Shown in pieces: positions 3 through 28,813 of a stretch of 30,541 nucleotides of DNA. A program made the translations under genes and the position numbers. Below the pieces are notes generated by a model. The model was not told the origin of the DNA, ran no database searches, and was given only the letters and a program-made list of their open reading frames with translations. Where the stretch lies: the IMG/VR virus record IMGVR_UViG_3300042298_002676, positions 1-30,541 of that record; one strand, 5' to 3'. The first letter of the stretch is position 1; every line of letters starts with the position of its first letter. The stretch comes from a virus.

Positions 3-3000
3 GGAGCTACCCCTATAGTTTTGGAGATGGAAAACCTAGAAGAATTAAATAAATACTTTGAAGATAATAATAATCCAACTAAAGCTTTTATAGATTTTGT
101 AGAAAAAATTAATATAGAGTATCCAACAAACTGGGGATTTGTTCCATGGTCAGAAATGATTTGGGACTACGCTGGAAAATTTGAAGAAGGAGTAAAAAAG
201 GTTCCTTTTTCTTACGATAAAAATCCATTTGCTGGACAATCTACTCCTAGGTATATCCAAAATGGAGTTGGAGATTTAAGTGACTTAAAAGTTAGCATAA
301 GATCCAAGAGAGAGTTCTCATCAGATGAAGTAATCTTAAATGATATTTCAGATGAACAAGTTTATGAAAAGGCTTTTAAAATAAAACTAGCTGGCATTGA
401 AAAAATTGGAGAAAGTATTGTTAGACCACCTATAAACTTTGATTTTGATAGTCAACTGGAATATACCTACAATATTCTTAATCAAAAAACAGCTACAATA
501 AAGTTTTTAGTAGAGCTAGTTGTGTCAGGTGTTACTTATTATGCTAACTATACACTCAATACAGTTAGTGACATCTATGCAGCTGGTCCATTGTATTCTA
601 TTTTTAACATCGCGACAAATAGAACTAACTCGGATGTGCAGTTCAAGTCAAAAACTACAAATGTTAATTATGTTGACAATACTTCAACAACAGCCAGCAA
701 CACAATACATATATCTAATGTGACAGAAGCAAGAGTAAGCTTTGGTCACTTTATTTATTCAAGCACTACACCGCTATATACGATAAGCGGACACAGTACC
801 AGTAACTCTGGATGGATACACCCTAAGGGTCACGCAACCGCAAAGTACTATACAACGAGCTATGCTAACGCTTCTACCTCGACCTTGCCGTCGCCGTACT
901 ATACAATTACAACACCAACTATTTCGAAAATGCAGATCGAGTATGGATCGAGCATGCTTTCTAGTACCCCTTCAATTGGCTATACCTCTGCAGTAAAAAC
1001 CTCTGGCGTCTTAAGGCCATACTCCACCTCATCTGGTACTGCTACCCCATCTTTTAGTATACCTTTTAATTCCCTAGTTGCTTTAGCAAAAGGATTCCCA
1101 CCGGCTCAGTCCTCTCCAACCTATAACGCTTTGGTGTTAAGGAATACCGTCCCAGAAGATGCGTACATAGACCCGGATTACTCTACGCCTGGTTATGGAT
1201 ATAACGGTTATGGTGGTTATGTAAACCATCCACAGTTTAATATAAATTATTTTGTTCCTGGATTAATGATAGATTCAGACATAACAAGTCCTCAATTTTT
1301 TGCTACGCCATCTTATTCTTTATCAAGTACTCCGACAACACTTTCGGTTTACTGGGACCCTTATGCCGTGCCGAGCAATAGAAAATATTCCCTTAATGGT
1401 GTTGGACAAAACAACTACCCGCTTACCGTAGGGGAATGGAAGTATTTTGAAAAAACATCAGCAACACCTGTGTACTTTAGATTGTCTGAAAGAGGAGTTA
1501 TTAAGTCGGAGGAAGACATTGGTGCAAGCTATGAATTATCTGATTCTATTTCTAGTATAGATGTCCATAGATATAACTTTGACTTTAATTTATTAACGCC
1601 AAACAAATACATTGTAAATAATATTTCAGCAATTCCAGCTGATTCATCAGACAACTCATTTGAGGTTTGGACAGATAAAAGTTCAGTTATACCGTACTAC
1701 TCTATAAGTGAAGACGATGATCTCAGAGTGCCTAACACTATGTATGTACCTGCTGATTCTTACAATGAACTAAAGCAGGGGACAGACAATGATGTTTACA
1801 TACCTTCTGTAGTAGTTAGGTCAAGACTAAATACAAAACATAATAAAGACTTTGAATCAGAAATACACACAGGCTGGTATTACCTTAATAACCAAGAAAC
1901 CTATGTATATGCAAGACCAGTGACAGAAAATGTCACCTATACATCCTCTAACCCTTATCATCAGATAGTTTTGTCTGGCCACGCAAAGCAAGGTGCGCCA
2001 GTTATTATAGAATCTTTAAGCAACCCTAGCACTAGCTTGACGCAAGTAGCCTTTATCGATGCTGCGACACCATCAGTTTTCGGTAGTTTTAACACAGAGT
2101 ATTTAGAGGCAAGAAAAAACAATTATTTATACGTTGGTTATAAAAACATTTATGAAGTCTCGGTATATGATCCAATAACAGAATTATATCTTTTAGAAAA
2201 TGGTAGCTCAAATACTGAAAAAATAACAATGCCAGCGGGATCTATGGTGCCTGGCAGAACCTATACGGTAAAATATAAAGTTAGAAATGCTTATTCAGTA
2301 GACAACGAATACCTTGACAGTAATAATAAGTTGAAAACTAAAATATTGTTCCACGCTACTCCAATTACTGGTGACACCAATTACGCAGTCACCTATGAAT
2401 CTACGTTGTTTGATTCGTCTACACCTTCAGGAGTGTATCATTCGCCAATGAAGTCATTGTTAAACGAGGGATTTGTTTATTTGACTGACTCAGTTTATGA
2501 GTATGATAGATTTTTAGCAGAGACAAACCCAGGATATCTAATTGATGACCCGGCTTCTGACTATTCTATATTAACAATAGAAAGTTACGATAAAAACGGA
2601 AACCCAAAACCGTATCAAAAGTATAATATTACATCAAGTCTCTTGTCCGTAGAACCAAGCTCGGTAGAAACAGACAATAACGGCTTTGCTTACGCAAGAG
2701 TAGCTTATTCCGGTGCTACTCCAGCTATCGTAAATAACGCTCCCCTGTACATATCTGGGGTACAAAGTGGGTATAGCATGGCTAACGACTCTGCTACATT
2801 AAACTATTCAATAGTAAAGTCAGAGTCAGGCCTAGATAGTCTCTACGCTGAGGTAGACCCACAGATAATAAAAGCCGATGGAGTAAGTACCTTATCAATA
2901 AAAGGAATGCTGTCCTCTAAAACTAAAGACACTTCTTCTGTTAGGGTTTACTATAGACTGGGTAGAACCTTGTATTCAGCTATAACAAAGCCAACTTATA

Positions 3001-3428
3001 ATTCTGTAGTGTCCTTGGAAGATGGTTCGTTTACCATTGGTCCAATCACGGCACAGTCTTCAGCTACCCCAGGATATTGGTTTGCTGTTGTAGAAACAGA
3101 ATTTAGCTCCAATAATGTGTCATCCCCAGTTACTATATCAGGAGACATAGTACATTGGTTTGAAGATTCGCAAGATGCCATTTTGAATTCATCTGGTCGT
3201 GTTACGTCGGTGCAAGATACGTTTACTGCAAGTGATTTTTCTTTTGTGTCTTCTACCCCAGTTTATAAGATAGATTACTTGACTGGAAACCCAGCTCAAA
3301 AGAGCGCAACACCAAATGTATCTTTGCCAAAATGGTTTAAGATACCAAGATTAACGCAGTATCAGCTGGGTATTCTTGGAAACGATTACTATTCCCTAGA
3401 CAACAACAGACAAATATACCCAAGCTAA
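3..3428 (+). CDS. Large Ser/Thr/Tyr-rich virion protein with Ig-like repeats, 5' end probably outside window
   Basis: Probable tail or adsorption protein of at least 1133 residues. An in-frame ATG lies at 27, but the frame is open to the left edge and the upstream codons read Gly-Ala-Thr-Pro-Ile-Val-Leu-Glu, containing the Ala-Thr-Pro motif that recurs through the protein. The GGAG before the ATG abuts it and is too close for a good ribosome site, so I think the gene begins upstream. Near the C-terminus (about nt 2560-3170) are Ig-like segments; one has the Big_1/invasin-like pattern 'EVDPQIIKADGVSTLSIKG'. A mucin-like stretch (nt 740-1130) is dominated by Ser, Thr, Tyr and Pro, and a Gly/Tyr-rich loop lies near nt 1180-1220. 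Ala/Ser/Thr-Thr-Pro tripeptides occur about 16 times. No enzymatic motif is visible. The virion role rests on size, composition and neighbours. Confidence 0.75.
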   Translation, partial: GATPIVLEMENLEELNKYFEDNNNPTKAFIDFVEKINIEYPTNWGFVPWSEMIWDYAGKFEEGVKKVPFSYDKNPFAGQSTPRYIQNGVGDLSDLKVSIRSKREFSSDEVILNDISDEQVYEKAFKIKLAGIEKIGESIVRPPINFDFDSQLEYTYNILNQKTATIKFLVELVVSGVTYYANYTLNTVSDIYAAGPLYSIFNIATNRTNSDVQFKSKTTNVNYVDNTSTTASNTIHISNVTEARVSFGHFIYSSTTPLYTISGHSTSNSGWIHPKGHATAKYYTTSYANASTSTLPSPYYTITTPTISKMQIEYGSSMLSSTPSIGYTSAVKTSGVLRPYSTSSGTATPSFSIPFNSLVALAKGFPPAQSSPTYNALVLRNTVPEDAYIDPDYSTPGYGYNGYGGYVNHPQFNINYFVPGLMIDSDITSPQFFATPSYSLSSTPTTLSVYWDPYAVPSNRKYSLNGVGQNNYPLTVGEWKYFEKTSATPVYFRLSERGVIKSEEDIGASYELSDSISSIDVHRYNFDFNLLTPNKYIVNNISAIPADSSDNSFEVWTDKSSVIPYYSISEDDDLRVPNTMYVPADSYNELKQGTDNDVYIPSVVVRSRLNTKHNKDFESEIHTGWYYLNNQETYVYARPVTENVTYTSSNPYHQIVLSGHAKQGAPVIIESLSNPSTSLTQVAFIDAATPSVFGSFNTEYLEARKNNYLYVGYKNIYEVSVYDPITELYLLENGSSNTEKITMPAGSMVPGRTYTVKYKVRNAYSVDNEYLDSNNKLKTKILFHATPITGDTNYAVTYESTLFDSSTPSGVYHSPMKSLLNEGFVYLTDSVYEYDRFLAETNPGYLIDDPASDYSILTIESYDKNGNPKPYQKYNITSSLLSVEPSSVETDNNGFAYARVAYSGATPAIVNNAPLYISGVQSGYSMANDSATLNYSIVKSESGLDSLYAEVDPQIIKADGVSTLSIKGMLSSKTKDTSSVRVYYRLGRTLYSAITKPTYNSVVSLEDGSFTIGPITAQSSATPGYWFAVVETEFSSNNVSSPVTISGDIVHWFEDSQDAILNSSGRVTSVQDTFTASDFSFVSSTPVYKIDYLTGNPAQKSATPNVSLPKWFKIPRLTQYQLGILGNDYYSLDNNRQIYPS

Positions 3429-11929: not shown

Positions 11930-12151
11930 ATGGCACAATTCTCTCCAAACACAGTAGGCTATGACAACGCTGTATATAAAATATCAGGTTTTTTTGATAA
12001 GTACTATAATTCAGGTTTTAAAACTCATGAAGAATTCTTAAAAGAATACCAAATACTCTTGCAGTCTGTTTCTGGTTCAGCTGGAAATGTTATGACTAAC
12101 TATGAGCCTGTCACAAAACGGACAACCACCAAGGTCTGCGCATTTAAATAA
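11930..12151 (+). CDS. Short ORF, possible N-terminal part of the following gene
   Basis: A 73-residue frame starting at ATG 11930, one base after the previous stop. 'YDNAVYKISGFFDKYYNSGF' is helical and resembles in style the N-terminal helices of the sibling proteins starting at 9268 and 14438. It ends 50 bases inside the next open frame. The last residues after about nt 12117 look unnatural for such a domain, whereas the next frame continues a plausible helical N-terminus. Removing one A from the AAAA run at about 12115-12118 joins both frames into a single protein with the length expected from the siblings. So this is either a small gene, the first part of a frameshifted product, or a frame broken by mutation or sequencing error. 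Confidence 0.5.
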   Translation: MAQFSPNTVGYDNAVYKISGFFDKYYNSGFKTHEEFLKEYQILLQSVSGSAGNVMTNYEPVTKRTTTKVCAFK

Positions 12152-14441
12152 GTACGCAACTGATATAAGCGCAGACTCAGCTGTAGTAGCAAAACAAATA
12201 GACTACTTGTCATCAAAAACTATATCTACTTTTAATTTATTTTCTTCAGAAATAGAAAAAGAATCAAACTTTCTTGAAAGAATAAATTCAAAAATCAAAG
12301 TTCTTCAACTATATTCTAAGAGTTCAAGCGAAGACATATATTACTACGGCGATTCTTTTGACAACTTTGATAACATAGATACATCAGCTAAGTATGATCT
12401 TCCATTAGCTTCTACCGTAGATGGTTTTTTGAGCTTGCCTGTTGTCGATAGCGCAGTGTGGTCTATAGACTCAGTAGACATATTAGACAAAGACGAGAAC
12501 GGGAATAAACTTTCTAATGGGTTTTTGGGCAACAGCCACATGGCTATCCAGGATACTACCATCACAACACAGGCTCTTGCAAACACTGCTGCTTCATATA
12601 AGTACCTTTTTGAAGGCGGTAAGTCGCTTAACAATGTAGCCTATGCATACAGGGACAAAAATCCTGATACATATTTTGAATATGAAAAACTAAAAGTTAC
12701 CAACCCAAGAGGTGCCAGCCAAGACTATGAGTTTCAATATAAAAATAAAATAAACAATCAAAATTTGATTTATCAATGGAATAACTCTGATGATAGTCCT
12801 TTGAAACTGGTACTTCAAATATCTAAAAGAGGTTCTGCTCCAGCAAATAGTCTTTCTATAACGCCATTTTTTGGGTATGACGAAATAAATATTACTCCAA
12901 TTAAGATAATATCTATAATAGTAGAGACAATTGATCCAGGCTTTGAACCAAAACAAGAGATACTTAGCTCGCCAATCACCGTAGGGCCTACAGCTATACC
13001 AACATCCGTAACCGATTCTAATAACTTTTTCTTTAAAAAAGCTGTCATTAAATTTGCAGAAAGAAATGTCTCGAAAGTAACTGTTACAATTGAACAGAGC
13101 TCTTCTGCTGGCGTCAACATCAAGCATGCCTATTGGACAGTTGCTTCAGTCAATGCAAACTATGAATTTTCTGCAACAGATTATGTATCGTTTGGTGCAG
13201 ATAACAAGCCTGTTCCAGAAGGTATTTGGTCAAGTTCTTCAAGGTTTAATCCAAGCTTGATATACAATAGATCAACTATATCAAGTATAACTGGCGTAGA
13301 GTCATCGCTTGACAGGTTGATACCAAGCATATCAAACCCAACAGAAATAACTGGTGGGTCAGATCTATCTAGAAGAGTGACTATTAGCGGTGTGCAGGAT
13401 GTCCCGGTCACTTATTATGTTATGAAAGTTTTTGATAAAAAGAAAAACAAATATGTTTACGTTGAGGGCCTTAAACCTTTTTCAACTCAGGCTGAATACG
13501 ATAATGAACTTAGGCAAGTTCCTTCAGGTTCAACTCCATTTATCAATTGGTGGCCCGCAACTAACGAAATACTAGGATATGATACGCCAGCTAACGCTGG
13601 TTCATCTGGGGCTGCCAAAGCTTTTTATAGTTCAACCAATATTAATGATCCAAAGTATGATGCAATCTTAAGGCCATTTTTTGCAAACCCAAATTATATA
13701 CCAGCAACACCAGGATACGGTGTTGCCCCAGATGTATATGAATGGTGGGCTTTAAAATACAAGCTTACTGGTGTAGAAAAAAATTCAGGTTTTAAGGGAA
13801 CCGCCACTCCATCTTACTACCTGGGGCAAAGATACACCATTACAGAAAACGAAGCCAATGTAGGAGAATTAATTAAAGCAGAACAATCCCAAAAAATAAC
13901 AAAACCAAAAGTCCGATACAATATAAACTTAAATAAAAATTACGAGATTATTAGGGATGGCGCTAGTATAAATGACCAAACAGTCGCAGCTAAAAGATGG
14001 TCTATAGGGTTAAGGGATATATCGGTAGGCAATGAATTGTATAATACCTCGGCAGAAATAATTTCCAAACCTTTTAATTTCCCATACCCAGTAGAATACT
14101 TGATGCTGTACTCTGACTACACCATCCCAGTTGCTGAAATGGCAAATGAGTTTTCAGAACAAACTGAATTTATAAGTTACTATATTTCAGTAGAAGGCAA
14201 AGACGGCCCCTGGCTGCCGATATCTCCTGTTGAAAATCCATTTAATTCAAATGTACCAGAGATATATTCGTTCAGCAAAAATGTTTCAAGTGAATTGAGA
14301 ATACCTGGAATAGCTTATATAGATACTACTTCAGAGATAAACTCAGTAAGAGTAAGAATAAAAATTAGAAAACCAAATGTATTGAACGGCACACCGCTTA
14401 TAAATTACTACCAATTAGCAGCAAAGGTAAAGAGAGCATGA
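12102..14441 (+). CDS. Baseplate/tail protein, paralogue family member 2
   Basis: A 779-residue frame if started at ATG 12102, which has no convincing ribosome site. It overlaps the previous 73-residue frame by 50 bases in the +1 frame, so the true N-terminus may come from that frame. The body matches its neighbours: helices ending 'ERINSKIKVLQLYSKS', then 'GDSFDNFDNIDTSAKYD', a beta-sandwich, then 'FISYYISVEGKDGPWLPISP', and a C-terminus 'VRVRIKIRKPNVLNGTPLIN'. Ala-Thr-Pro followed by an aromatic occurs near nt 13701 (ATPGY) and 13804 (ATPSY). A role in the tail or baseplate is inferred from family and position. Confidence 0.7.
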   Translation: MSLSQNGQPPRSAHLNKYATDISADSAVVAKQIDYLSSKTISTFNLFSSEIEKESNFLERINSKIKVLQLYSKSSSEDIYYYGDSFDNFDNIDTSAKYDLPLASTVDGFLSLPVVDSAVWSIDSVDILDKDENGNKLSNGFLGNSHMAIQDTTITTQALANTAASYKYLFEGGKSLNNVAYAYRDKNPDTYFEYEKLKVTNPRGASQDYEFQYKNKINNQNLIYQWNNSDDSPLKLVLQISKRGSAPANSLSITPFFGYDEINITPIKIISIIVETIDPGFEPKQEILSSPITVGPTAIPTSVTDSNNFFFKKAVIKFAERNVSKVTVTIEQSSSAGVNIKHAYWTVASVNANYEFSATDYVSFGADNKPVPEGIWSSSSRFNPSLIYNRSTISSITGVESSLDRLIPSISNPTEITGGSDLSRRVTISGVQDVPVTYYVMKVFDKKKNKYVYVEGLKPFSTQAEYDNELRQVPSGSTPFINWWPATNEILGYDTPANAGSSGAAKAFYSSTNINDPKYDAILRPFFANPNYIPATPGYGVAPDVYEWWALKYKLTGVEKNSGFKGTATPSYYLGQRYTITENEANVGELIKAEQSQKITKPKVRYNINLNKNYEIIRDGASINDQTVAAKRWSIGLRDISVGNELYNTSAEIISKPFNFPYPVEYLMLYSDYTIPVAEMANEFSEQTEFISYYISVEGKDGPWLPISPVENPFNSNVPEIYSFSKNVSSELRIPGIAYIDTTSEINSVRVRIKIRKPNVLNGTPLINYYQLAAKVKRA

Positions 14442-16667: not shown

Positions 16668-17066
16668 ATGAAAAATTATTTTTATAATGAGTTTGATAAA
16701 AGCCAAAATATATTTCAACCGATCTTGCAAAGATCAAGGCAAATATACAGAGGACATAGAGAATCTGGTAAGATAAACTTAGAGCAAGATCAGTTCAAGA
16801 TGGACGTGTCTCGATTAGAAGCCAGGATACAGGGAGCTTCATCACTCCTGAGGGTTATGTCGGAAGTTGGCTATCATCATAACTCTGCTACCCCTTTAAC
16901 TAATGCAGCAACTCCATTCTTTAATGCGCAATACAGAATTTTTGGGCAAGGCGCAACACCTTCCTCAGCAGAACAAACGGTTTTTACAGAAGATATATTA
17001 GAATTAAGTAGTACTTTAAATAGAATTCTAAATAAGATAAAAGCCCTAGAAAATCAGGAGAAATAA
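16668..17066 (+). CDS. Small helical structural protein with three Ala-Thr-Pro motifs
   Basis: A 132-residue protein. Residues about 40-65 and 105-132 are predicted helices ('MDVSRLEARIQGASSLLRVM' and 'LSSTLNRILNKIKALENQEK'). The loop between them holds three Ala-Thr-Pro tripeptides (nt about 16888, 16909 and 16951), in contexts NSATPL, NAATPF and QGATPS. Outside the loop it resembles the helical N-terminal regions of the neighbouring baseplate-like proteins, so it may be a truncated or specialised sibling or an adaptor. Its stop codon is immediately followed by the next start. I do not recognise a named family. The clustered motifs make it a compact test case for the glycosylation idea. Confidence 0.68.
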   Translation: MKNYFYNEFDKSQNIFQPILQRSRQIYRGHRESGKINLEQDQFKMDVSRLEARIQGASSLLRVMSEVGYHHNSATPLTNAATPFFNAQYRIFGQGATPSSAEQTVFTEDILELSSTLNRILNKIKALENQEK

Positions 17067-24031: not shown

Positions 24032-24268
24032 ATGCTTGGTCTTGCAGTAGCCGGAGTAACTTTTGTGATGTTGCAATTATATTACAACAAGAACCAGAAA
24101 CCTAATCGTGGTAGCTTCATCGAGCCTACAGAAAAACAGTTGAGAAATAGACTAGAAGAATTTTTTACTGACGATTCATTAGTAAAAGCTCAAGATAAAT
24201 ATGACACTATGATTAAAATGGGCTTGAATGGGAAAGATGCCTACAGAATATTAGGCTGTTCAGTATGA
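24032..24268 (+). CDS. Small membrane-anchored hypothetical protein
   Basis: A 78-residue protein starting at ATG 24032, with GGGAG at 24020-24024, seven bases upstream. Upstream ATGs at 24011 and 24014 are in frame but worse placed. Residues about 2-18 ('LGLAVAGVTFVMLQLYY') form one membrane segment, followed by a charged helical cytoplasmic part ('TEKQLRNRLEEFF') and a C-terminal helix. Its stop overlaps the next start (ATGA), tying it to the glycosyltransferase gene. A membrane anchor or tether for the neighbouring enzymes is possible but unproven. Confidence 0.5.
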   Translation: MLGLAVAGVTFVMLQLYYNKNQKPNRGSFIEPTEKQLRNRLEEFFTDDSLVKAQDKYDTMIKMGLNGKDAYRILGCSV

Positions 24269-25068
24269 TAGACTTGTGCGTAGTAAACCATAACACTGCT
24301 GGTCTAATGAAGCGATTTTTGGATACCCTTCATTCTGACCTAGGCGATAAAAATAGGAACTGGAAGCTACATATAACAGACAATGATTCTACTGACGAAT
24401 TTATAGAGTTCATTAGACAAACTGGTCATAACTATCATATAGAAAATTTGTTTTTGAGAAAGAACATAGGGTACGCTGCTGCTTGTAACTATATGGGCAG
24501 CAAAACTAATTCAGATATAATAGGCTTGCTGAATTCTGATGTATGGATGACTAACGATGATGTAGATAAGATACAAGCAATCTTCGATAGCAACCCCGAC
24601 ATACACATATTGGGCCCTAAGCAAAGAGACGAACACGGTCGAGTAACGCATGCCGGCATGACGGGCACTGGCGCACAACCAATCATGAGAGGTTGGATGT
24701 TGAGTGATCCCGAAGATACAATGTTTAGAGACAGAGTAAACTGTATCACAATATCTGGATCAGCTTACTTTATAAGAAGAGAAGTATGGGACGCTATGTT
24801 AAACCATCCTAAGTATAAAGAGATCCATCCTGAGGCTCTAGGCGCGTTCCTGCCTACTCCACATTACTACGAAGAAACATGGTGTTCTTATTTTGCCCGC
24901 CACTTAGGCTATAACGTAGTCTATGACGGTAGCGTATCAATTGGACATAGCTGGCACGCTTCGTCGGCAAAGCCCGGAGAAGGGATCAGCCACGTAGATC
25001 ATTACTTCCCTATATCAAGAGAAATTTTTAGAAAAGCTTGCGATCATATGGGGATCGAACGAGACTAG
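24265..25068 (+). CDS. Family 2 (GT-A) glycosyltransferase
   Basis: A 267-residue GT2-type enzyme resembling rhamnosyl- and related transferases. It opens directly with the nucleotide-sugar-binding strand 'MIDLCVVNHNTAG'. 'HITDNDSTDEF' follows, then the metal-binding Asn-Ser-Asp at 90-92 ('LLNSDVW'), the acceptor-side 'ISGSAYFIRREVW' (163-175), and 'YYEETWCSYFARHLGY' with the catalytic-base-like Glu203/Glu204. No membrane segment is present. The start overlaps the preceding stop, and the next glycosyltransferase gene begins seven bases after its end. It likely transfers a sugar to a phage or host acceptor; donor and acceptor are not readable from sequence. Confidence 0.85.
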   Translation: MIDLCVVNHNTAGLMKRFLDTLHSDLGDKNRNWKLHITDNDSTDEFIEFIRQTGHNYHIENLFLRKNIGYAAACNYMGSKTNSDIIGLLNSDVWMTNDDVDKIQAIFDSNPDIHILGPKQRDEHGRVTHAGMTGTGAQPIMRGWMLSDPEDTMFRDRVNCITISGSAYFIRREVWDAMLNHPKYKEIHPEALGAFLPTPHYYEETWCSYFARHLGYNVVYDGSVSIGHSWHASSAKPGEGISHVDHYFPISREIFRKACDHMGIERD

Positions 25069-25075
25069 CTAACTC

Positions 25076-25981
25076 ATGAATGACCATATATTTAATGACC
25101 ATATATTTATAGCGATTCCAGCTTTTAACGAAAAGTTTACGCACATAACTGTAGAAGATGCTTTTGCAAAGGCGGATAACCCACACAATGTATATATTGG
25201 AATCTTTAACCAGAAAACAAACAACCTTGAATTTGAAGATTTTTCTGGTTACAAAAATGTGAGATGCGTTAATGTAACATATAAAAATCCACTAGGTCTT
25301 GGGCTGGCTAGGGTAGCTGCAGCAAGTCTTTTAGAAGATGAAGAATATTTTTTGCAGCTAGATGCACACACAATTTTTGCAAAAGGCTGGGACACACGAT
25401 TGCTAGGCGACCTAAAGGAGTTATTGCAGTATTGCGATAAACCTTTGATATCGCAATCGTTAGCTTGGCATCGTGAAAAAGATTATTTCGATAATGATCA
25501 AGCTTACATAAAAAACTTTTATGGAATTAAAGCTTACCCTCTTTATAGGGAAGGAGATGTTAAGACTCATCCAGACCATTCTAGAGAGTCGGAAGAAAAG
25601 ATTCTTGGAAAATTTCTTGAGCACTACCTTTGTTATGGTGGTTTCTTATTCGGCGAATCAAAATTTTTATATGATATTTCTTATAATCCATTTATATTAA
25701 TGGATCCAGAGCAAGAAATAACAGCTCTTAGAGCATCCACTAGAGGTTATAGGTTTTTTAGTTCAGACATAACACCTATATCCACATTGGGTAAAGGCGA
25801 ACATGGCGGTTTCACAGAAGAAAAATATAAAGATGATATTAAATATGAATTTTTAAGGTATGATTTTGATCAGACCAGAAAAGGCTGGCATGGCAAAAGA
25901 TTTTATCAAGGTCTAAATTTTGGTTTTTGGGGAGCTGAAACAAAAGAACTATATGATGAATATTTTAAAAAAATACTATAA
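25076..25981 (+). CDS. GT60-like polypeptide N-acetylglucosaminyltransferase
   Basis: A 301-residue GT-A enzyme. 'FIAIPAFNE' (11-19) starts the fold. 'YFLQLDAHTIFAKGWD' (91-106) matches the 'LQIDSHxxFxxGWD' signature of the GlcNAc family (PF11397, GT60), with Asp96 and His98 as the DxH metal site. 'LGLGLARVAAASLLEDEEYF' just before it matches the family's 'AR..a..ly..E.y' helix. 'MDPEQEITALRASTRGYRFF' (209-228) matches its 'EE..la.R..trGy' segment. Known GT60 members add alpha-GlcNAc to hydroxyproline of Skp1 or to Thr of trypanosome mucins. So a protein acceptor, possibly a virion protein, is plausible here. Its ribosome site is weak. A tandem 15-base duplication lies at the N-terminus. Confidence 0.75.
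   Translation: MNDHIFNDHIFIAIPAFNEKFTHITVEDAFAKADNPHNVYIGIFNQKTNNLEFEDFSGYKNVRCVNVTYKNPLGLGLARVAAASLLEDEEYFLQLDAHTIFAKGWDTRLLGDLKELLQYCDKPLISQSLAWHREKDYFDNDQAYIKNFYGIKAYPLYREGDVKTHPDHSRESEEKILGKFLEHYLCYGGFLFGESKFLYDISYNPFILMDPEQEITALRASTRGYRFFSSDITPISTLGKGEHGGFTEEKYKDDIKYEFLRYDFDQTRKGWHGKRFYQGLNFGFWGAETKELYDEYFKKIL
25079..25108 (+). repeat. Perfect 15-base tandem duplication at glycosyltransferase start
   Basis: AATGACCATATATTT occurs twice in direct succession (25079-25093 and 25094-25108). It encodes Asn-Asp-His-Ile-Phe twice just before the first beta strand of the enzyme. Because 15 is a multiple of three, copy-number change would lengthen or shorten the N-terminus without breaking the frame. 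Confidence 0.9.
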
Positions 25982-26012
25982 TATTTTTACACAACAATAG
26001 AAAGAAGATAAA

Positions 26013-26414
26013 ATGTCAGATCAATTTAATGTTTATTTATACAACGCAGAAGTAATTAAAGTAGTAGATGGAGATACGTTCAAGATAAATATTGATCTTG
26101 GATTCGAAGTACACCTTGGGCCAAAGAGCGTAAGACTTTATGGCGTTAACACCCCCGAAAGTCGTACTACAAACCTTGAAGAAAAGAAGATGGGACTCGC
26201 TGCAAAAGAATTTACTGATCAATGGATTAAAAAAGCTGGTAGTAAGGTGAAGATAGAAACAATTCTAGATAAGAATGAAAAGTATGGTAGAATACTTGCT
26301 AGAGTATGGAACGAAGCTGGCGAATGTCTTAACACAGAAATTGTTAAGGCTGGACTAGCTAGAGAATACTTTGGCGTAGGCGACAAAACTTTTAATGAAT
26401 TTAAGAAGGCATAA
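26013..26414 (+). CDS. Staphylococcal-nuclease-like (SNase/thermonuclease) protein
   Basis: A 133-residue Ca2+-dependent nuclease-fold protein. 'VIKVVDGDTFKI' (14-25, Asp21), 'VRLYGVNTPES' (40-50) and 'EKYGRILARVW' (89-99, Arg93) are the SNase motifs. The residue equivalent to Asp40 of S. aureus nuclease is Asn46, as in some other family members; Arg41 and Glu49 are retained. No signal peptide, so it acts inside the infected cell, possibly on host DNA or RNA. It shares its last base region with the next start (ATAATG). Confidence 0.85.
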   Translation: MSDQFNVYLYNAEVIKVVDGDTFKINIDLGFEVHLGPKSVRLYGVNTPESRTTNLEEKKMGLAAKEFTDQWIKKAGSKVKIETILDKNEKYGRILARVWNEAGECLNTEIVKAGLAREYFGVGDKTFNEFKKA

Positions 26415-26818
26415 TGCAAACATTTTTACCATACGCAGATCTACAAGAATCAGTTCGGGTATTAGATTATCGTAGACTTGGCAAGCAGCGCGTAGAAACT
26501 TTTCAAGTTTTAAACATATTACTTGATCGTACACCAACAAAAGGTTGGAGAAATCACCCAGTAACACGTATGTGGTCAGGCTACGAATCTGCTCTACAGG
26601 TTTACCAGAATTATACTATCCAAGAATGGATCAATAGAGGGTATAAAAACAACATGCAGTTTGAGGAAATATTAATTCCGTCTCCACAAATGCCGAGCTG
26701 GTTTGGCGATGAAGAATTCCACAGATCACATAGGTCTAACTTATTAAGAAAAGACTATGAATATTATAGCCAATTTTTTGATGAGCCCACAGACCTAGAA
26801 TATAGTTGGCCAGTATGA
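26414..26818 (+). CDS. MSMEG_6728 / Pyr_excise family protein
   Basis: A 134-residue protein. 'MQTFLPYADLQESVRVLDYR', then 'RLGKQRVETFQVLN' and 'GWRNHPVTRMWSGYESALQV' match the N-terminal region of the MSMEG_6728 family, common in actinobacteria and annotated through PF03013 (T4 endonuclease V-like pyrimidine dimer glycosylase). The catalytic Thr2 of T4 DenV is not clearly conserved: here the second residue is Gln and the third Thr. A DNA-repair role is inferred from the family. Its stop overlaps the next start (ATGA). Confidence 0.8.
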   Translation: MQTFLPYADLQESVRVLDYRRLGKQRVETFQVLNILLDRTPTKGWRNHPVTRMWSGYESALQVYQNYTIQEWINRGYKNNMQFEEILIPSPQMPSWFGDEEFHRSHRSNLLRKDYEYYSQFFDEPTDLEYSWPV

Positions 26819-27222
26819 GTGTTACAGTTTATTTAGCTGGTGCAATGGATTACGTAGGCGACTATGCTCTTGGCTGGAGAAAAGAAGCTACCGAGCTTCT
26901 TAAGCAGAGAGACTATAAGGTTCTTGACCCTACTTCTATATCAGAAGACGATACTATGTCAGCTGAAGAAATAGTGCAAAAAAATCTGTTTATGCAGAAA
27001 CGATCAGACATTTTGCTGGTAGAATACATGCTAGAAGATAGAGCCTACATAGGCACTGACTTCGAAATGGCATACGCAAAACTAAACGATCAACCCGTAA
27101 TAGTCATATGCTCAAAGCAAAATAGTGATCGACCCTATATGAAATATATGTCGACAAAACTTGCTGACAGCGTTGCCGATGCTGTAGAATACATATCAAC
27201 ACATTATCCAACAAACCAATAA
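26815..27222 (+). CDS. Nucleoside 2-deoxyribosyltransferase-like protein
   Basis: A 135-residue protein. ATG 26815 overlaps the previous stop by four bases; a TTG at 26806 is in frame but less likely. 'VYLAGAMDY' (5-13), 'KRSDILLVEYM' (62-72) and 'GTDFEMAYA' (80-88, Glu84 at the nucleophile position) match the PF05014 fold. Members of this family cleave or exchange the base on deoxynucleosides or deoxynucleotides. It fits the nucleotide-metabolism theme with nrdJ and thyX, as a salvage or dNMP-hydrolase step. Confidence 0.78.
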   Translation: MSVTVYLAGAMDYVGDYALGWRKEATELLKQRDYKVLDPTSISEDDTMSAEEIVQKNLFMQKRSDILLVEYMLEDRAYIGTDFEMAYAKLNDQPVIVICSKQNSDRPYMKYMSTKLADSVADAVEYISTHYPTNQ

Positions 27223-27232
27223 AGGAAAAAAA

Positions 27233-27415
27233 ATGTCAGAGAATAAGTTCAAATACTTTACAGTAGAAACTGTAACTGTAGTAAAAGCTAATAGCAAAAC
27301 AGATGCAGAAAAGCTTGCAATGGGCCGTCGTGGTGTAGCAGGAGAAGTAATTCTCAAGACCACAGACGTTGAAAGAATCAGTGCAATCCAAGCTCGTAAG
27401 CACATCGTTATTTAA
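27233..27415 (+). CDS. Small hypothetical protein (60 aa)
   Basis: A 60-residue protein starting at ATG 27233, behind AAAGGA. It reads as two beta strands ('FKYFTVETVTVVKA') and a helix ('SKTDAEKLAMGRRG'), ending in a basic Arg-Lys-His patch. No known family. It sits just before the perfect terminator hairpin, so it is the last gene of the preceding transcript. Confidence 0.5.
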   Translation: MSENKFKYFTVETVTVVKANSKTDAEKLAMGRRGVAGEVILKTTDVERISAIQARKHIVI

Positions 27416-27433
27416 TTATCATTATTAGCAATC

Positions 27434-27472
27434 ACCAAGCGTGGGGTTCGTCCCCACGCTTGGTTTATCTTT
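27434..27472 (+). terminator. Perfect 13-bp hairpin with T-rich tail
   Basis: ACCAAGCGTGGGG (27434-27446) pairs perfectly with CCCCACGCTTGGT (27452-27464) around TTCGT, followed by TTATCTTT. This is a strong rho-independent terminator shape. It lies just before the AAGG ribosome site of the next gene and may also insulate that gene's transcript. Confidence 0.82.
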
Positions 27473-27482
27473 AAGGAAAAAG

Positions 27483-28193
27483 ATGATTTACGGATTAGTC
27501 GTAGCCAGAAACGAAGAAGATAGGTATTTAGAAAAATTCCTACAAAGATTATCTACACAGGTAGATAAGATAATATTTACAGATGATTGCTCAACTGACA
27601 ATACTGTAGAAATAGCCAAGAAGTATGCAGAGGTATACTCTACTTCTGAGAATATGTTCATAAAGCACGAGGGCGCTCTTAGAGCAGAAGCTTGGGCTAA
27701 TCTTGGTAAGCACGCAAAGCCAGGTGACTGGGTTGTGGCAATAGATGCAGACGAGATGCTGTATACAATGGATAATGAGTCCATAAAAGACACACTAGAT
27801 AAGTCTCCATTCGATGTAGTCAATGTTAGAAGATGCGAAATGTGGGATGAAAATTGTTACAGAGTAGACAAGATGTGGGCCCCACATAACACTACTAGAA
27901 TTTTTAGGTATGCAACTAATGGAGTCTATAAAGATAAAAGATTAGCTTGCGGATCTGAACCAACCTACGTAGATGAATGGGTAAGACGTGGTAATTTTTG
28001 GTACGAGAACCCATTCGTAATGCAGCACTTAGGTTATGCAAGACTAGAAGATAGAGTATCAAAGCACGAGCGTTACATGACCCTTGATAAGGGTGAGTTT
28101 CATAACATAATACACTTACAATCAATATTGGATAATAACCCAACTTTAATTAATTGGGGTATTTTTGGAAACAAAGAGGTAAACCTAAAATGA
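27483..28193 (+). CDS. Second family 2 (GT-A) glycosyltransferase
   Basis: A 236-residue GT2-type enzyme. ATG 27483 is chosen because AAGG lies seven bases upstream; an earlier in-frame start at 27441 falls inside the terminator stem. 'MIYGLVVARNEEDRYLEKF' opens the fold. 'FTDDCSTDNTVEI' (32-44) and the metal-binding 'IDADEML' (87-93) follow. 'TTRIFRY' and 'HLGYARLEDRVSKHERYM' near the C-terminus are typical of GT2 enzymes that glycosylate from nucleotide-sugar donors. No membrane segment. Acceptor unknown. Confidence 0.85.
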   Translation: MIYGLVVARNEEDRYLEKFLQRLSTQVDKIIFTDDCSTDNTVEIAKKYAEVYSTSENMFIKHEGALRAEAWANLGKHAKPGDWVVAIDADEMLYTMDNESIKDTLDKSPFDVVNVRRCEMWDENCYRVDKMWAPHNTTRIFRYATNGVYKDKRLACGSEPTYVDEWVRRGNFWYENPFVMQHLGYARLEDRVSKHERYMTLDKGEFHNIIHLQSILDNNPTLINWGIFGNKEVNLK

Positions 28194-28813
28194 CAATCAT
28201 AAATAGCAAAGAAACAATAAAAGAATTGACTTATAAAATGTCAAGAAAAGAGCGCTTTGCTTTTGTTAACTTTTCTAGATCAGCACTGCTTGCTGCAACC
28301 GGAAAGATACCATCAGAAAAAAGACCTCCTAAGCCTTTTGTAAAGTCGATAGTCAATGCTTTAGAAGTAAAGAACAGCAACTATATGAAAGCTATCCCTA
28401 CTCATATGATTGGCCAAGGGTCTGGTTTTTCCGTGAGCGAGATCAAGAGTCTTGATAACGAAAAGATATATGATGCAGGGATGTTAGAATATTATTATGT
28501 TTCTAAAAAAGATATTTTTGATTCATTTGTTGAGCATTACATTAAATATAGTTCAACACTAGTAGTTTCTTTTCATGAGAAAAAGACTATACAAAAAGTC
28601 ATAGGATCACCTAAGCATTACTTGCAGGTTCCATACAATGACTTTTATGATAAGCTAGACTCAATTTATGAATCTATAATAGCTCATGAAAATATAGACT
28701 ACTGCATTCTCGACTGCCCAGTTCTAGCGTCCGCGTTAGCTCCTAAAATTTGGGAAAATTCAAACATGTCTATATTAGACTTTGGAAAAGTATTTACCAT
28801 AGCTAGCAAGTAG
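28190..28813 (+). CDS. Possible GT-D-like glycosyltransferase or unknown protein
   Basis: A 207-residue protein. ATG 28190 overlaps the previous stop (ATGA) and follows GAGG about nine bases upstream. The layout 'RFAFVNFSRSALLAATG' early and 'YCILDCPVLASALAPKIW' then 'MSILDFGKVF' at the end recalls the GT-D (DUF1792-type) fold, where a similar strand-helix-strand ends in 'DiGk'. The GT-D Asp-Gly-Glu motif is not present. 'LVVSFHEKKTIQKVIG' and 'YLQVPYNDFYDKLDSIY' are internal strand-helix units. The partner position after a GT2 gene supports a sugar-related role, but the assignment is tentative. Confidence 0.45.
   Translation: MTIINSKETIKELTYKMSRKERFAFVNFSRSALLAATGKIPSEKRPPKPFVKSIVNALEVKNSNYMKAIPTHMIGQGSGFSVSEIKSLDNEKIYDAGMLEYYYVSKKDIFDSFVEHYIKYSSTLVVSFHEKKTIQKVIGSPKHYLQVPYNDFYDKLDSIYESIIAHENIDYCILDCPVLASALAPKIWENSNMSILDFGKVFTIASK

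Follow-up and report, generated by a model that had tools for sequence, protein, structure and literature searches.

What, if anything, connects a cluster of phage glycosyltransferase genes with the tripeptide Ala/Ser-Thr-Pro ([AS]TP), which recurs in a large baseplate protein encoded in the same stretch of DNA? That stretch is the 30.5-kb IMG/VR virus record IMGVR_UViG_3300042298_002676 (37% guanine plus cytosine), analysed here over its whole length and called the window. The short answer is that one of the enzymes, a member of the PF11397/GT60 family, is the product of an accessory gene that enters and leaves a single slot behind the first GT2-family gene, and that this gene is dispensable for the motif. 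The longer answer, which we hold to be close to an even call, if anything slightly under, is that a core of two GT2 enzymes and a GT-D-fold enzyme builds an O-linked glycan on the threonine of [AS]TP in the baseplate protein, with the GT60 enzyme as an accessory. The genes concerned are as follows, all four enzyme open reading frames (ORFs) being intact.

3..3428, plus strand: C-terminal 1141 residues of a 1619-residue baseplate-region virion protein (from longer contigs of the same virus and a PHROG match)
24265..25068, plus strand: P0001, GT2-family glycosyltransferase, conserved core (from PF00535 and alignment)
25076..25981, plus strand: P0002, glycosyltransferase of the PF11397/GT60 family, an accessory in a variable slot (from Pfam and the motif D96-A97-H98)
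27483..28193, with an alternative upstream start at 27441, plus strand: P0003, GT2-family glycosyltransferase, conserved core (from PF00535 and PF13704)
28190..28813, plus strand: P0004, GT-D (DUF1792)-fold protein, conserved core (from an AlphaFold2 model and Foldseek)

How do we know that the motif can do without the GT60 gene? Take G017, a 67.7-kb relative with about 95% identity to the window phage in most of the genes flanking the slot, in which P0001 is followed directly by an SNase gene, the slot gene is absent and PF11397 has no match; its 1619-residue baseplate homologue holds 20 [AS]TP, that is, 18 of the 19 sites of the window phage and two that have been gained. In G021, G022, G025 and G026, whose baseplate proteins are only 32-48% identical, the slot is again without a GT60 gene, yet there are 18-25 motifs (counts that, for split genes, take in the short N-terminal piece). 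P0001 led to 80 loci, of which 63 are without a GT60 copy in the slot, eight have one and nine have two, and when two scans are joined, GT60 is present in the slot of 8 of 87 non-identical P0001 loci and absent from 79, with at least five gains or losses on well-supported branches of the tree of these loci. A GT60 gene may of course sit elsewhere, as it does outside the slot in G029, G041 and G051; a fragment without one is therefore no proof of absence, and it is the large contigs that carry the argument. PF11397 has no match anywhere in G030, G031, G032, G039 and G040, contigs of 193-210 kb whose completeness is not stated, and the [AS]TP counts are 19 in each of G030, G031 and G040 and 11 in G032 (a 1055-residue fragment), G039 being left out because its gene lay on the strand opposite to the one read at that locus. 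Finally, phages with and without GT60 do not differ in motif density (P 0.19 and 0.20, with only three or four GT60-positive phages), so that the co-occurrence of gene and motif proposed in the preliminary description of this DNA has not been borne out: motif density is independent of GT60 presence.

What, then, do we know of the motif itself? The window's virion proteins had been called rich in Thr-Pro, and this holds in that [AS]TP occurs far more often than expected by chance and is concentrated in tail proteins; it does not extend to the virion proteins at large, one protein being strongly enriched and two weakly. The strong case is 3-3428, with 18 Thr-Pro pairs of which 15 are [AS]TP, against 1.1 expected (P 1e-12); seven of the 15 lie within 2001-3428. 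These are 15 of the 19 copies in the 1619-residue protein, which is complete in contig G001, two genes downstream of a baseplate-J gene; the ORF matches the PHROG family phrog_21059 (virion structural protein), and its upstream neighbour phrog_6 (baseplate wedge). The 15 nonamers that encode the motif comprise 13 distinct DNA sequences and use all four Thr codons, and so the motif is not a DNA repeat. The two weaker cases are listed below, and the remaining virion ORFs of the window show no [AS]TP enrichment.

16668..17066, plus strand: 132-residue virion-module protein (three [AS]TP within 25 residues, P 6e-6)
12102..14441, plus strand: 779-residue virion structural protein with a weak excess (three [AS]TP, P 0.015)

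Among relatives, all the baseplate homologues in which [AS]TP was counted have it, including those with as little as about 30% identity (31 proteins, some of them near-identical), with about 14-26 copies per full-length protein. The homologues of G028-G038, full or partial, have 11-26 against about 0.8-1.2 expected, and nine proteins from deeper branches have 14-20, while [AS]SP and [AS]VP in these proteins depart little or not at all from chance. In G007 there are 24 copies in the baseplate protein (0.9 expected) and 12 in a fibre-like pair (L048:1457-5320; 1.2 expected), compared with 18 in the genome minus virion genes, where 15.5 are expected. The sheath-like protein of this phage (L043:3754-5391) has three Thr-Pro pairs, all of them within [AS]TP. 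When eight baseplate homologues are aligned, the motif occupies 39 columns, and the visible changes include A/S swaps and gains such as SSNP to SATP. Since only six of the 39 columns are common to all eight, the alignment points to selection at the level of the motif and not for fixed positions. We read the whole as selection that favours a recognised motif on what would be surfaces of the tail.

Are the enzymes what they were first taken to be? Here the preliminary description has fared well. In the Pfam scan, both proposed GT2 enzymes lie above the PF00535 cutoff of 23.3 bits, P0001 (64-100% identical among relatives) at 46.1 and P0003 at 49.6; the latter also scores 43.9 bits against PF13704 and has the invariant residues D88-x-D90-E91 in the alignment. 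P0004, put forward as a possible GT-D protein, is under the cutoff for the GT-D-like family PF22882 (17.4 against 27 bits), but the assignment is right because its AlphaFold2 model (predicted local distance difference test score, pLDDT, 91.7) has as its top Foldseek matches in the PDB three DUF1792/GT-D structures, 4phr, 4pfx and 5v4a (E 2.9e-6 to 5.3e-5, template modelling (TM) scores 0.65-0.70), the best being 4phr at E 2.9e-6 and TM 0.70. The GT60-like assignment of P0002 passed its hidden Markov model check against PF11397 (E 3.3e-22; 79.9 bits, cutoff 21), PF00535 giving merely 15.6 bits, and a relative, P0006, scores 71.4 bits against PF11397. P0002 has the D-x-H metal-binding-type motif, as LQLD96AH98, at which the bacterial PF11397 members L131 and L143 read QIDSH and one distant phage member (L031) reads DAQ. 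The nearest of its cellular relatives to be found share about 30% identity with it and come mostly from proteobacteria; phmmer found no relative of P0002 in the PDB, and among known phages no homologue was detected for P0002 or for P0004.

Some members of the PF11397 family turn up in other settings. L034:338-4897 encodes a 1519-residue protein with two PF11397 stretches, and the gene that follows is carbamoyltransferase-like by eye. In Yersinia aldovae (L131:818-9644) and Morganella morganii (L143:929-9617), a PF11397/GT60 gene lies within a type VI secretion locus with the order TssF, TssG, ImpA_N, Fimbrial-domain protein, GT60, small protein and OmpA in both, and modification of a contractile-machine or surface protein is a possible role for it there.

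How might the pieces fit together? What we observe is gene content, synteny and motif statistics; we infer the modification of [AS]TP, its nature as a glycan and the role of the trio of P0001, P0003 and P0004 as writer, and the acceptor, the sugar, the order of steps and the role of each enzyme are put forward in the same spirit. The trio would act in the cytoplasm, where one of the two GT2 enzymes would place the first sugar on the threonine of [AS]TP and the others would extend it, the targets being the large baseplate protein and, in relatives, also a tail-fibre-like protein. For the GT60 enzyme, the addition or variation of a sugar is a probable role, or else action on some other target, and it would be, like a GT25-family enzyme found in the slot of G007, the product of an optional tailoring gene. 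The label 'mucin-type', given to the system at first, is one we would drop, neither acceptor nor sugar being inferable. A wider version, about which we are somewhat more tentative, has [AS]TP as a protein O-glycosylation sequon on baseplates and fibres, read by the trio; selection on the motif as such would maintain it, with turnover of sites, throughout an extensive lineage of large, probably aquatic phages, while GT60, GT25-type and other enzymes are swapped as tailoring cassettes.

As to the trio, 83 of the 87 P0001 loci have P0003, and 83 have P0004. Remote baseplate homologues in Moorella phage MTATph1 (1363 residues) and Bacillus phage KLEB27-3 (590 residues) have one [AS]TP each, and P0001, P0003 and P0004 have no match in either record, so that trio and motif are associated at the level of sequence in what is a correlation across two outgroups and not proof. 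The otherwise different phage GX15bay (Caudovirales, mangrove soil) has, at L097:13126-14819, a P0001-like gene (39%) next to a P0003-like one (28%), with their order unchanged. A scan seeded with its P0001 relative returned, by gene criteria, only phages of the same lineage, and hence trio and motif could not be tested independently beyond that lineage.

Several points weigh against the trio as writer of a glycan on [AS]TP. Trio and motif are both constant within the lineage, which leaves their association resting on two remote outgroups, one of them short, and the 80-locus set was itself picked by P0001. GX15bay, with its P0001- and P0003-like genes, has only a weak [AS]TP excess (21 against 10.7). 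In addition, a comparison of synonymous with nonsynonymous change at the motif codons of G001 and G017 gave no significant result (P 0.43), and the predicted structure of the baseplate protein has a pLDDT of 39, so that exposure of the sites cannot be judged from it.

Could the motif have nothing to do with sugars? The strongest competitor, which we consider unlikely though well ahead of the others, gives [AS]TP a structural or protein-binding role as a short motif, such as a turn between beta strands or a docking site, and has the glycosyltransferases act elsewhere. A Thr-Pro tripeptide can favour turns, the link between enzymes and motif is indirect, and further glycan genes make up a second cassette in one relative or more. 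A turn or docking site sits less easily with the strict use of threonine, [AS]SP being little or not enriched, with turnover between non-homologous positions, or with the presence of [AS]TP in unrelated tail proteins (the baseplate protein, the fibre-like proteins and the 132-residue protein). The second cassette is in G003 (L017:7240-12025, minus strand) and consists of a TauD dioxygenase, a GT2, a GDP-mannose-type NAD epimerase/dehydratase, another GT2 and an FkbM methyltransferase, which is consistent with glycan diversification; an epimerase-sized gene is missing from the syntenic stretch of G017.

The neighbourhood of the enzymes bears on two further ideas. Between P0002 and P0003 lie the following genes, the last two of which are syntenic and stand outside the glycan model.

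26013..26414, plus strand: SNase-like nuclease, which usually bounds the variable slot on its downstream side (from Pfam/PHROG scans)
26414..26818, plus strand: pyrimidine dimer DNA glycosylase-like protein (from PF03013)
26806..27222, plus strand: nucleoside 2-deoxyribosyltransferase-like protein (from PF15891/PF05014)

In relatives, the exchangeable cargo after P0001 (for example, L204:11744-14253, L178:10819-11907 and L211:10818-11363) includes a C5-cytosine methyltransferase, a GT25-family enzyme and a 2-oxoglutarate-Fe(II) oxygenase, and in G022 a P450 gene (L085:9950-11215) stands just past the SNase gene. One idea, which seems to us improbable, is that the glycosyltransferases alter host surface glycans, bringing about receptor change or superinfection exclusion; P0003 does match a GtrB-like PHROG weakly (30.7 bits), but the only domains that Pfam/PHROG scans picked up in the four window enzymes are glycosyltransferase domains of soluble type (transmembrane prediction was not part of the analysis), and the locus stands in synteny with genes of a large phage for nucleotide metabolism and replication.

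A shade less probable again is that they decorate the bases of phage DNA. There are nucleotide-metabolism genes around the locus, and co-occurrence with DNA-modification genes is borne out weakly, in that some relatives have C5-cytosine methyltransferase genes in the same slot, but G001, G003 and G017 have none. PF00303 and PF12851 genes are the usual sources of a hydroxylated base. PF00303 is absent from 16 contigs (control genomes were positive, and the contigs may be incomplete), and PF12851 (Tet_JBP) is nowhere above its cutoff, with one sub-cutoff match in G007, this being the weaker test as control genomes were negative too; no source of a hydroxymethyl acceptor has therefore been found. 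Least credible of all is the original notion of the GT60-like enzyme as primer on the threonine of [AS]TP, with the others lengthening the glycan, for although PF11397 membership is solid and characterised GT60 enzymes glycosylate polypeptides (PMC6939170), the gene is missing from most relatives with the motif still at 14-25 copies per full-length baseplate protein (G017, G021, G022, G025, G026 and other contigs, including the five of 193-210 kb), and GT60 as the [AS]TP writer is rejected on these presence/absence data, any surviving form needing a non-homologous primer in phages that lack it.

Why does this matter? Glycosylation of phage virions is known, but on a limited literature search we know of no sequence-readable short acceptor motif for it. 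If the trio does write on [AS]TP, then a dispersed motif that turns over beside a constant set of enzymes would be a testable, genome-searchable sequon for phage protein glycosylation, and it would predict sugar-coated tail surfaces in a lineage to which many IMG/VR contigs belong. In addition, the tempting assignment of [AS]TP writing to the GT60 gene is corrected.

How does all of this compare with what has been described elsewhere? Phage DNA base glycosylation of the T4 and TET types also uses phage-encoded glycosyltransferases, but the contigs tested here have neither a PF00303 hydroxymethylase nor an above-cutoff TET member. The characterised members of GT60/PF11397 are the Skp1 Gnt1 enzymes of Toxoplasma and Dictyostelium and the polypeptide alpha-N-acetylglucosamine-transferase of Trypanosoma cruzi (PMC6939170), and in a limited full-text search PF11397 as a term turned up for a brown alga only. 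P0002 resembles the family in sequence, being far above the Pfam cutoff with the D-x-H motif kept, and differs from the characterised enzymes in being accessory and in coming and going independently of the candidate acceptor motif. The DUF1792/GT-D domain of dGT1 acts in the stepwise O-glycosylation of the serine-rich repeat adhesin Fap1 (PMC5063993); P0004 has this fold, and cytoplasmic, stepwise adhesin glycosylation by several glycosyltransferases may serve as a working analogy, although P0004 is below the cutoff of the GT-D-like Pfam family, the proposed target is not a serine-rich repeat and no primer of the Gtf1/Gtf2 type was identified among the window enzymes. Closest in setting is the virion glycosylation of mycobacteriophages, where, according to Freeman et al. 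2023 (via PMC12619734 and PMC11256854), phage-encoded glycosyltransferases are likewise present and are linked to virion-protein glycans, which are reported to lie at the C-termini of capsid and tail tube subunits, whereas the candidate sites here are [AS]TP motifs dispersed through baseplate and fibre-like proteins, and the enzymes would be a GT2/GT2/GT-D trio with an optional GT60.

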